A stretch of 64,000 bases of DNA from Betaproteobacteria bacterium (lineage in GTDB: Bacteria; Pseudomonadota; Gammaproteobacteria; Burkholderiales; SG8-41). Shown in pieces: positions 49,121 through 53,141 of this stretch. Each line of letters begins with the position of its first letter. Positions within the stretch are counted from its first letter, which is position 1. The position numbers and the translations under genes were made by a program. The notes beneath the pieces were generated by a model. The model was not told the DNA's origin. It did not search any database and saw only the letters and a list, made by a program, of their open reading frames with translations. The stretch spans positions 1-64,000 of the forward strand of contig JAKFYK010000040.1 in NCBI GenBank assembly GCA_021730905.1. The letters run 5' to 3'.

Positions 49121-49698
49121 TAAATGGCCAGCGCACCCAGCAGGTTGGGCATCACGCTCACGGACTCGCCATCGGTCAACACTTTGCGTTCAAGAATACG
49201 TATCCCGCGCTCTGTGCAAAAACGCTCGAAGTCGTCCAGCGTACACAGATGGATGTTGGGCGTGTCGAACCACTGGTAAGGTAAATTCTCCGACACCGGC
49301 ATGCGTCCGCGCAGCACGTGCATGCGATTGCGCCAATAGCCGAAATTCGGAAACGTGACGATGCCTTCGCGCCCGACACGCAGCATTTCACGAATGATGC
49401 GTTCGCCGTTGCGCATGGCTTGCAGCGTCTGAGACAGTATCACGTAATCGAATGACTGGTCTTCAAACTCGCTCAGCCCGCGTTCCAGATTGCGTTGCAC
49501 CACGTTGACGCCGTTTTTCACGCACGCCAGCACGTTTGCGTCGTCGATCTCAACACCATAGCCCGAAATATCGCGCTCGCGTTTCAGATACTTGAACAAC
49601 ACGCCGTCACCACAACCCAGGTCAAGCACACGCGCGCCAGGATTGACCCACTGCGCAATCGCCGCAAAATCGGCGCGGTCTATGCTGATGCCGTTCAC
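49102..49698 (-). CDS. metW: methionine biosynthesis protein MetW
   Basis: [50 protein letters not shown]. Confidence 0.96.
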
Positions 49699-50852
49699 TT
49701 TCTCGCCTCAGCATCAATTCGCGCAAAGTAGGCAGCCACCAGATTGTGGTACCGCGCGTCATCCAGCAGGAATGCATCGTGGCCATGCGGCGCATCGATC
49801 TCGGCATACGTGACGTCACGCCTGTTTTTCAGCAGCGCATGCACGATCTCGCGCGAACGTTCGGGCGAAAACCGCCAGTCGGTGGTAAACGACACCACGA
49901 GAAAGCCCGCGGTGGCAGGCGCCAGCGCCTTGGCCAGATTGCCGCCGTGGTCAAGCGCCGGATCAAAATAGTCAAGCGCCTTGGTGATGCGCAGATAGGT
50001 ATTCGCATCGAAGTAGCCGGAAAACTTGTCGGCCTGATGCCTTAGATATGATTCGATCTCGAATTCCGAATCAAACGAATAATTCACGCGGCCATGTTTG
50101 AGCGTGCGGCCAAATTTGCTCGCCATCTCGTCGTCGGAAAGGTACGTGATATGCCCCACCATGCGCGCCACGCGCAGCCCGCGGCGCGGATTCGCGCCCT
50201 GCGCATAGTAGTCCCCGCCGTGAAAGTCCGGATCGGTCAGTATCGCCTGGCGCGCCACTTCGTTAAACGCAATATTTTGCGCCGAGAGATTGGGTGCACA
50301 AGCGATCACCAGCGCGTGCCGCACCCGTTCCGGGTACGCAATCGCCCATTGCAGACACTGCATGGCGCCAAGGCTGCCGCCCATCACCGCGGCAAATTGT
50401 TCGATCCCCAACTGATCTGCCAGACGAGCCTGTGCGTTAACCCAGTCTTCGACGGTCACCACCGGAAAATTCGCGCCCCACGGCATGCCGGTATCGGGGT
50501 TGATCGACAGCGGCCCGGTGGAACCGTGGCAGCCGCCGAGATTGTTCACACCCACCACAAAAAACCGGTTGATATCAAGCGGCTTGCCGGGACCGATCAT
50601 ATTGTCCCACCAGCCCACGTTGCCCGGCTCGCCCGCATACACGCCCGCCGCATGGTGCGATGCATTGAGCGCATGGCATACCAGCACCGCGTTCGAGCGC
50701 GCGGCATTGAGCGTGCCATAGGTCTCGTAGGCAAGCTCGTAGTTGGCAATGGCGCGGCCACACTTCAGCGGCAGCGGCTCGCGAAAAGCTGCCCGCTGCG
50801 GCGTGACCACGCCTACGCTGGTTTTGGCGGAAGTTGTAACGGTTGTATCCAT
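49695..50852 (-). CDS. metX: homoserine O-acyltransferase
   Basis: [15 protein letters not shown]...[24 protein letters not shown] at 50852; operon with metW. Confidence 0.96.
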
Positions 50853-50854
50853 GA

Positions 50855-50917
50855 AAACAAAAACCCGGTGAGTATTTCGCGCTATACCTTCATTACGATC
50901 GCGCAATCACCGGGTTT
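50855..50917 (-). terminator. terminator-like hairpin abutting metX start (candidate attenuator)
   Basis: minus strand AAACCCGGTGA ... TCACCGGGTTT (11 bp arms, 35 nt loop) then TTGTTTTC-ATG. Confidence 0.55.
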
Positions 50918-50949
50918 GAGTGTCATGGCCTGAACTGCTCTGCCATCAT

Positions 50950-51000
50950 CTCTTTAGCCGGATTTATTGCGCGCCCGCAATCTGATATCAAATCGGCGCG
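50950..51000 (-). promoter_or_regulatory. SAM-II (SAM_alpha) riboswitch-like aptamer upstream of metX
   Basis: minus strand CGCGCCGATTTGATATCAGATTGCGGGCGCGCAATAAATCCGGCTAAAGAG: P1 CGCGCC/GGCGCG, AUUG/CAAU pseudoknot-type pairing, conserved AUAAAU and GCUAAA blocks, correct genetic context. Confidence 0.82.
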
Positions 51001-51017
51001 TAAAAACAGATACTTAC
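51001..51017 (-). repeat. AT-rich dispersed repeat copy I (abutting the SAM-II-like aptamer)
   Basis: GTAAGTATCTGTTTTTA. Confidence 0.75.
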
Positions 51018-51018
51018 C

Positions 51019-51408
51019 TTACCTCCCTGTTGCAGTCTTGTCAAGCGTCACCGCATAGTCGAGCAGCCGCTCACGGATAAAATCGCGTATGCGCGGCTCG
51101 ATGCCGGCCGTACGTGCATCGAATTTTTCCAGCACCACGGGCAGCGGCAGCACGCCGTCCGCCACCATGATCGGCGTCCGATTTTTGATGGGTGATGCCT
51201 CGCCACCGTCAACGCGGTGGTGCGAATAGCCTTTCGATTCGCGCCAGCTCAGCACGCGCTCGTATGCGGGCAGGTCATAGCACAACTGAAATCCGACAAC
51301 GCGTCCATCGGTGTTTTGCCACGTAAAAATATCGAAATAATCGTCGCGAAACCAGCGCCGCCGCAATTGCGGGTCCTGCTGATGCACGTTGCCGATCTCG
51401 CGCAACAT
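51019..51408 (-). CDS. conserved hypothetical protein
   Basis: MLREIGNVHQQDPQLRRRWFRDDYFDIFTWQ; tandem with ptsI. Confidence 0.7.
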   Translation of the reverse strand: MLREIGNVHQQDPQLRRRWFRDDYFDIFTWQNTDGRVVGFQLCYDLPAYERVLSWRESKGYSHHRVDGGEASPIKNRTPIMVADGVLPLPVVLEKFDARTAGIEPRIRDFIRERLLDYAVTLDKTATGR

Positions 51409-51410
51409 TA

Positions 51411-53141
51411 TCAAACCTCGTTCAGTTTTCGCAGCAGCGCGCGCAGCCGGTCGGGATCGCTAGCGCGCAACATCCTCCGCAGCAGCGGCTTCAACGCGCC
51501 GGTATCGGTGCTCAGAATGCGCTCTTTAACGTCAAGCACATGCGCCGAATGCATTGAAAACCCGCGCAACCCCAGCGCCAGCAGCAGGCGTGTCAGCGCC
51601 ACGTCTCCCGCCATCTCGCCGCACAACGCCACCGGCACACCGGCCTTGTCCGCGCGTTTGATAATGGACGACAGCAGGCCGAGGATTGCCGGATGCAACG
51701 GATCATAAAGATACGCGACGCTGTCATCGGTGCGATCTATCGCCAGCGTGTACTGGATCAGATCATTGGTGCCTATCGAAATAAAATCCAGCTTGCGCAG
51801 GAAAACATCCAGCGCCAGCGCCGCCGCCGGCACTTCAATCATGCCGCCGATATGCACGCTGCGGTCGTAGGGAATCCTCTCCTCATCAAGGCTTTCCTTT
51901 GCACGCGCAATCATGAGCAGCGTCTGATCGATTTCGCTGGACGATGCCAGCATCGGGATCAGAATGCTGATTCGGCCATGGTGCGACGCGCGCAGCAACG
52001 CGCGCAACTGGATCAAAAACCGCTGCGGCTCGGTCAGACACAAACGAATCGCGCGCAGGCCCAGCGCCGGATTGAGCGTGGTTGGCTGCGCTTCCTCGGT
52101 TTGCTTGTCCGCGCCCAGGTCGTAGGTGCGTATGATCACCGGCAGGCCATTCATCGCTTGGGCGACCTTGCGATAGGCCTCAAACTGCTCGTCCTCATCG
52201 GGCAGATCGCTGCGGTTCAAAAACAGAAACTCGCTGCGAAACAGGCCGATGCCGGTGGCGCCATTGGCAATGACTTGCTCCACGTCTTCCGGCAGTTCGA
52301 TATTCGCATGCAGTTCCACGGCAACGCCGTCGCGTGTCACCGCACGCGTGTCGCGCAGTTCCAGCAGTTTGCGCCGTCCGCTTTCGAACTCGCGCTTGCG
52401 GCGCTGGTATTCGGCCAGCACGCGTTCATCGGGATCCGCAATCAGCACGCCGTTGGTGCCATCGACAATCACCAGTTCGTTTTCGCGAATCAGGTCGCGC
52501 GCGCGATGCAGCGCGACAATCGACGGAATGTTGAGACTGCGCGCCACCACCGCCGTGTGCGATGTGGTGCCGCCCGAGTCGGTGACAAAACTCGCGAATT
52601 GATGACGCTTGAATTGCACCACGTCGGCGGGCGATAAATCGTGCGCCACCAGAATCAATTCCTGTTCAGTGTCCGCGGCAGGGGGAGGCGTATACCCCGG
52701 CTGGCCGGACAACGCTCGGAGCACGCGTTCGACCACCTGGATCACGTCGTTGCGGCGCTCGCGCAGGTAAGTATCTTCAATGGCATCGAATTGCGCCAGC
52801 AGCGCATCGGTCTGCACCTTGAGCGCCCACTCCGCATTGCACTGTTCGGTTTCGATAATGCGGCGCGGCTCCACCGACAGCGTCGAATCGTCAAGTATCA
52901 TCTGGTGCAGATTGACGAACGCTGAAAACTCCGTCGGTGCGCCCGCCGGAATTTCGGTTCGCAATTCGGTGAATTCGGCGCGCACCTTGCGCACGGCCGC
53001 GTCGAATCGCGCGGACTCTTCCAGCACCTGATGCGGCGGCACCAGGTAGTGGCTGACCTCCAGCGTGGCGTGCGACACCAGATGCGCGCGGCCGATGGCG
53101 ATGCCGCCGGACACGCCGATACCGTGCAGGGTAAAACTCAT
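51411..53141 (-). CDS. ptsI: phosphoenolpyruvate-protein phosphotransferase (PTS EI)
   Basis: GGTTSHTAVVARSLNIPSIV; C-terminal CGEMAGD. Confidence 0.96.
   Translation of the reverse strand: MSFTLHGIGVSGGIAIGRAHLVSHATLEVSHYLVPPHQVLEESARFDAAVRKVRAEFTELRTEIPAGAPTEFSAFVNLHQMILDDSTLSVEPRRIIETEQCNAEWALKVQTDALLAQFDAIEDTYLRERRNDVIQVVERVLRALSGQPGYTPPPAADTEQELILVAHDLSPADVVQFKRHQFASFVTDSGGTTSHTAVVARSLNIPSIVALHRARDLIRENELVIVDGTNGVLIADPDERVLAEYQRRKREFESGRRKLLELRDTRAVTRDGVAVELHANIELPEDVEQVIANGATGIGLFRSEFLFLNRSDLPDEDEQFEAYRKVAQAMNGLPVIIRTYDLGADKQTEEAQPTTLNPALGLRAIRLCLTEPQRFLIQLRALLRASHHGRISILIPMLASSSEIDQTLLMIARAKESLDEERIPYDRSVHIGGMIEVPAAALALDVFLRKLDFISIGTNDLIQYTLAIDRTDDSVAYLYDPLHPAILGLLSSIIKRADKAGVPVALCGEMAGDVALTRLLLALGLRGFSMHSAHVLDVKERILSTDTGALKPLLRRMLRASDPDRLRALLRKLNEV

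Follow-up and report, generated by a model that had tools for sequence, protein, structure and literature searches.

A SAM-II riboswitch aptamer was confirmed on the minus strand of the 64,000-nt stretch of DNA analysed here (the window), in front of the metXW operon; judging from its sequence, it presumably binds SAM. The reading we favour, at a probability of about 0.82, is that this cis-acting element shuts off metXW by transcription attenuation when SAM is plentiful, with a terminator and a predicted antiterminator as the competing structures. The element belongs to an ordinary, already known class of switch; the interest would seem to lie in its expression platform, which is unusual and unproven, and in gaps in annotation. 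Coordinates are collected in Table 1.

Table 1. Features of the metX leader and neighbouring genes, in window positions
Feature	Position	Strand	Basis
SAM-II aptamer, beta-type model match	50945-51001	-	R1 74.4 bits; RF00521 36.3 bits over 50933-51009
P1 5' strand CGCGCC	50995-51000	-	sequence, alignment
L1 GAUUUG	50989-50994	-	invariant, 22-sequence alignment
P2a 5' strand AUC	50984-50986	-	covaries with 50948-50950 over 133 aptamers
P2b 5' strand UUGC	50977-50980	-	invariant in alignment; partner GCUA
P1 3' strand GGCGCG	50970-50975	-	sequence, alignment
GCUAAA, conserved, P2b 3' strand	50953-50958	-	invariant in alignment
P2a 3' strand GAU	50948-50950	-	covariation, 133 aptamers
Predicted antiterminator strand A CGCGCAAU, partner AUUGCGCG at 50900-50907	50966-50973	-	minimum-energy fold, 129-nt prefix
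Predicted antiterminator strand B CCGG, partner CCGG at 50910-50913	50958-50961	-	minimum-energy fold, 129-nt prefix
Terminator segment (5' arm and loop) predicted to pair with strands A and B	50900-50913	-	minimum-energy fold, 129-nt prefix
Terminator 5' arm AAACCCGGUGA	50907-50917	-	leader comparison
Terminator loop, 35 nt; with 5' arm, degenerate reverse complement of aptamer	50872-50906	-	SW p = 0.0185 (2000 shuffles); p about 0.003
Terminator 3' arm UCACCGGGUUU	50861-50871	-	leader comparison
U-rich tail UUGUUUUC, directly before metX start codon	50853-50860	-	leader comparison
metX, homoserine O-succinyltransferase (succinyl type)	49695-50852	-	NF047916, 669 bits (cut-off 560)
metW, overlapping metX stop codon	49102-49698	-	TIGR02081, 273.7 bits (cut-off 189.5)
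Promoter TTGACA, 17 nt, TAAGGT	51016-51044	-	-10 begins at stop codon of 131-aa ORF, ends 15 nt before P1

The aptamer was identified with covariance models. RF00521 (SAM_alpha, equivalent to SAM-II) matched at 51009-50933 of the minus strand with 36.3 bits, the gathering score being 36 (E = 1.5e-4, whole window), and was the sole Rfam family above its own cut-off anywhere in the 64 kb. Taken by itself this pass is narrow, the score only just exceeding the cut-off, and a separate model, R1, was therefore built from 22 dissimilar SAM-II sequences, all from other genomes, with the window's genome left out. R1 scored the aptamer at 74.4 bits (E about 1e-18, whole genome). The original prediction, which placed a SAM-II aptamer upstream of metX in a genome of betaproteobacterial appearance and for which an RF00521 search had been suggested, is thus borne out by both models in a Burkholderiales genome; the sequence it had quoted is exactly 51000-50950 of the minus strand. 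Low Rfam scores such as this one result from the GC-rich P1 and UUGCGG core of what we call the beta-type aptamer.

The P1 helix named in the original prediction (CGCGCC/GGCGCG) occurs as described, the outer pair covarying among relatives (C-G, A-U, U-A). The compensatory AUUG/CAAU helix proposed alongside it was rejected: of 93 standard-form relatives no more than 14 could make it, and the SAM-II fold has no such helix. UUGC pairs with GCUA (P2b) instead, and CAAU lies in loop L3, from which it could pair with an AUUG of the downstream terminator. Helices P2a and P2b were assigned after the SAM-II crystal structure 2QWY, the support in the present data coming from conservation and covariation. 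For P2a, three of the four tested pairs were formed above permutation expectation over 133 aptamers (p < 0.0005 each), and the fourth, innermost pair showed hardly any variation. When the pairing was slid as a control, eight of nine registers were not significant; the exception, a shift of the innermost 5' letter by -1, was just 11% paired. An earlier covariation test of P2a that used unique types alone had not reached significance (p = 0.16).

The aptamer starts 148 nt before metX, the promoter-like sequence lies just upstream of it, and a GC-rich hairpin with a U tract (50917-50853) lies between aptamer and gene. Relatives likewise carry TTGACA-N17-TAAnGT at their metX and metZ leaders, and at least 9 of 12 promoter consensus letters were present in 69% of leaders, compared with 2% of shuffles. 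The hairpin is present in 14/14 metX leaders of the window clade; the end of its 3' arm, the hairpin base, is 8 nt upstream of the metX start codon, and the U tail fills the gap to the AUG. A simple promoter and terminator scan of the window picked up neither, the terminator being missed because its loop is 35 nt and the scan limited loops to 3-8 nt. On another contig of this genome (C9), a second SAM-II aptamer with terminator lies before a gene of the cystathionine gamma-synthase family (MetZ-like). Between ptsI and metX, upstream of the aptamer, is a 131-aa ORF (51019-51414, minus strand) that matched no Pfam or NCBIfam family. A leader peptide at AUGAUG after AAAGAG was considered and rejected; neither AUG nor frame is conserved in sister leaders, and the Shine-Dalgarno-like GAG touches the AUG.

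Under the favoured attenuation reading, which goes beyond the original prediction in including an expression platform, transcription would begin a few nucleotides before P1. With SAM plentiful, the H-type pseudoknot (P1, P2a, P2b) would be stabilised and CGCGCAAUAAAUCCGG locked up; the bound aptamer would hold P1 3', L3 and GGC, leaving the terminator 5' arm free to pair with the 3' arm UCACCGGGUUU, so that the hairpin with its U tract would stop RNA polymerase immediately ahead of the metX start codon. Because no G-rich stretch precedes the AUG other than the one within this hairpin, the terminator may also hide the ribosome site. With SAM scarce, the nascent aptamer is predicted to open and pair with the terminator, in its loop and 5' arm (CGCGCAAU:AUUGCGCG, CCGG:CCGG and more pairing back to P1), and this antiterminator would let the metXW operon be transcribed. 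Such OFF logic is usual for a biosynthetic operon. It is also in line with PMC2258182, according to which SAM-II of alpha- and beta-Proteobacteria goes mostly with terminators.

The predicted switch between the two structures was followed by folding the leader at successive lengths, with an energy model that leaves out pseudoknots and kinetics. Before the 3' arm is made, the antiterminator is the best fold (-44.9 kcal/mol, compared with -37.7 kcal/mol with P1 forced), its predicted pairs being those just named together with AUUGCG:CGUAAU, AUAUC:GGUAU and CGCGC:GCGCG. Once the 3' arm is made, the terminator wins (-50.3 versus -45.3 kcal/mol). The interaction energy of the window aptamer with its tail beats that of dinucleotide-shuffled tails (z -2.9, p about 0.003) and is strongest in one relative, L040 (z -5.6). 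Across the window clade, 13 of 14 leaders gave p < 0.06 for this pairing, these leaders being related and their p-values not independent, compared with 0/20 other leaders (19 from other clades and the genome's own metZ-like leader). Alignment of the tail to the reverse complement of the aptamer also beat shuffles for the window (p = 0.0185), L040 (0/2000), L045 and L046, and did not go beyond shuffles for L037, L038 and L044. The predicted antiterminator showed no two-sided covariation, because its aptamer strand is nearly invariant. A tentative interpretation, to which we give somewhat less than an even chance, is that the window clade has an 'anti-aptamer' platform: the long loop and 5' arm of the terminator would repeat the aptamer in degenerate antisense form, an arrangement that may go back to an inverted duplication. 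In the absence of SAM, almost all of the aptamer (its P1 5' strand, P2 strand, P1 3' strand and L3) would then unfold into one antiterminator of 25-32 bp.

It is unlikely, in our estimate, that the terminator is constitutive, the hairpin setting a fixed read-through while SAM affects translation or the stability of the RNA. Exactly this has been proposed for metA of S. meliloti, whose metZ and metA leaders resemble that of the window in combining SAM-II with a terminator and gave short terminated leader RNAs; at metA, unlike in the window, where an antiterminator is predicted, none was found after SAM-II (PMC9373788). The aptamer-tail complementarity, consistent within the window clade and so in favour of a regulated hairpin, is not significant in sister-clade leaders. 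The loop diverges except for a UUGCGC stretch, which is kept, and the aptamer's AAAGAG directly abuts unconserved AUG triplets, which leaves no translation target there; both argue against SAM acting beside a fixed terminator. Conservation of a GC-rich stem of 8-11 pairs and a U-rich tail in the closest relatives likewise makes it very improbable that the hairpin 3' arm (CCGGG) is simply the ribosome-binding region of a translational switch and the U tract incidental, even though the metX AUG has no other Shine-Dalgarno-like stretch ahead of it and, in the platform of Burkholderia and Trinickia relatives, UUUAGCCGC could pair with either aptamer GCGGCUAAA or the Shine-Dalgarno AAGGCGG.

Comparison with known systems bears on whether the aptamer is SAM-II at all. 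Like SAM-II as first described (RF00521; Corbino 2005), the window element has P1, a GAUUUG L1, a UUGC/GCUAAA P2b and a covarying P2a, and it shares the association with methionine genes, the promoter just upstream and the terminator downstream; it differs in its beta-type features (GC-rich P1, UUGCGG core) and in the long predicted antiterminator. Bordetella was already among the SAM-II carriers in Corbino 2005 (PMC1273637). A different pseudoknotted methionine leader with another ligand would be suggested by Leyn 2014, whose account of these elements limits SAM_alpha to alpha-proteobacteria (Rhizobiales and Rhodobacterales) and presents a 'metXZ' element of beta-proteobacteria as new, with no link to SAM-II drawn in that account (PMC4239095). 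As described there, the metXZ element precedes metXW or metZ, forms a pseudoknot from regions 1/4 and 2/6, and is followed by a terminator, with an antiterminator speculated (PMC4239095). Because it matches SAM-II in genes, taxa and topology, the features by which it was compared here, the metXZ element is most likely SAM-II itself, and this orphan element probably has a known ligand. With conserved cores and helices that match SAM-II, and with RF00521 reaching its cut-off in the window and in 52/300 genomes of the order, we regard a non-SAM-II identity as extremely improbable.

Those 52 genomes (about 17%) compare with 137/300 in which RF00521 matched at E <= 0.001, and an exact core pattern was found in 205/399 genomes and its reversal in about five. 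R1 matched in 149/200 order genomes (about 75%) and 87/108 genera, of which the weakest per-genome matches (E 1e-4 to 1e-3) may be chance. The original prediction had placed SAM-II mostly in alphaproteobacteria, which understates its frequency in Burkholderiales. The sampled metX leaders of Burkholderia, Trinickia, Paraburkholderia, Caballeronia, Herbaspirillum and Undibacterium were missed by RF00521 at its cut-off and found by R1, mostly at E <= 1e-5 and more weakly for Herbaspirillum forms; in most, an additional hairpin separates P1 from the GCUAAA core, and some leaders of Herbaspirillum have a second such hairpin before P2. SAM-II is thus widespread across Burkholderiales, poorly catalogued and largely missed at the current Rfam cut-off. 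In other genomes of the class, SAM-II was also seen before metK, the SAM synthetase gene (L128, L129, L132, L139, L140, L151, L153, L154, L157), before the methionine transporter gene metN (L130, L145, L146), and before the methyl-cycle targets metF (L144, L147) and metH (L031, L127), the genes being named by eye from translated starts.

A strand problem became apparent with RF02424, the 'Burkholderia sRNA Bp2_287', which occupies the same loci as leaders of the window type and is modelled on the opposite strand. Nine of 14 RF02424 matches overlap RF00521 matches on opposite strands. At L171:1460-1632 (minus strand), a 203.9-bit RF02424 match lies directly over SAM-II before metZ, the plus strand reading SAM-II (R1 35.6 bits), terminator, metZ; the start of the RF02424 model, AAAAAGCCCGC, is the complement of a terminator 3' end. 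By sequence comparison, RF02424 represents the strand opposite to a SAM-II leader and terminator upstream of metZ, and so is mis-stranded. In the window itself, an antisense sRNA as the main product was rejected, as RF02424 reached 19.9 bits against a cut-off of 70, on the antisense strand. The B. cenocepacia sRNA RIT77, reportedly up in worm infection and biofilm, has been equated with Bp2_287 (135 nt, chromosome 2, 1,106,447-1,106,581; PMC10987360), and may be a terminated SAM-II leader instead of a trans-acting sRNA. Neither this link of RF02424 to SAM-II nor that of metXZ was found in the literature searched.

The Burkholderia-type platform, within about 100 nt before metX, has no terminator (L084, L087, L090, L092, L096, L099, L100, L102, L103, L105-L107, L109, L111, L113), and its alternative pairings of UUUAGCCGC suggest translational control. 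In two metX leaders of the Herbaspirillum group (L085, L104), a UUUAGCC or UUAGCC that is complementary to aptamer GGCUAAA overlaps the terminator 5' arm, a putative different antiterminator design. Sister-clade GCGCAAGC terminator loops were considered as coevolving with CUUGCG; this was unsupported, and the loops fit a GNRA-capped hairpin. A second, divergent SAM-II-like element (GAUUUAA..ACUUGC..GCUAAAGCG) was seen in tandem after SAM-II and terminator at L116:1696-1754, L119:1692-1750, L125:1630-1688 and L032:1653-1708. These tandem elements scored 35-48 bits with R1, and RF01826 (SAM-V) gave no match at them; in L116 and L119 they have their own promoter-like sequence and are followed by a small protein without known family and then, by eye, a MATE-like transporter. 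Finally, several public MAG records titled 'Bordetella parapertussis' (L034, L038, L039, L041, L042, L044, L055, L081, L094) encode a MetX like that of the window's uncultured Burkholderiales relatives, mostly with a similar leader too, and by these sequences their titles look wrong.
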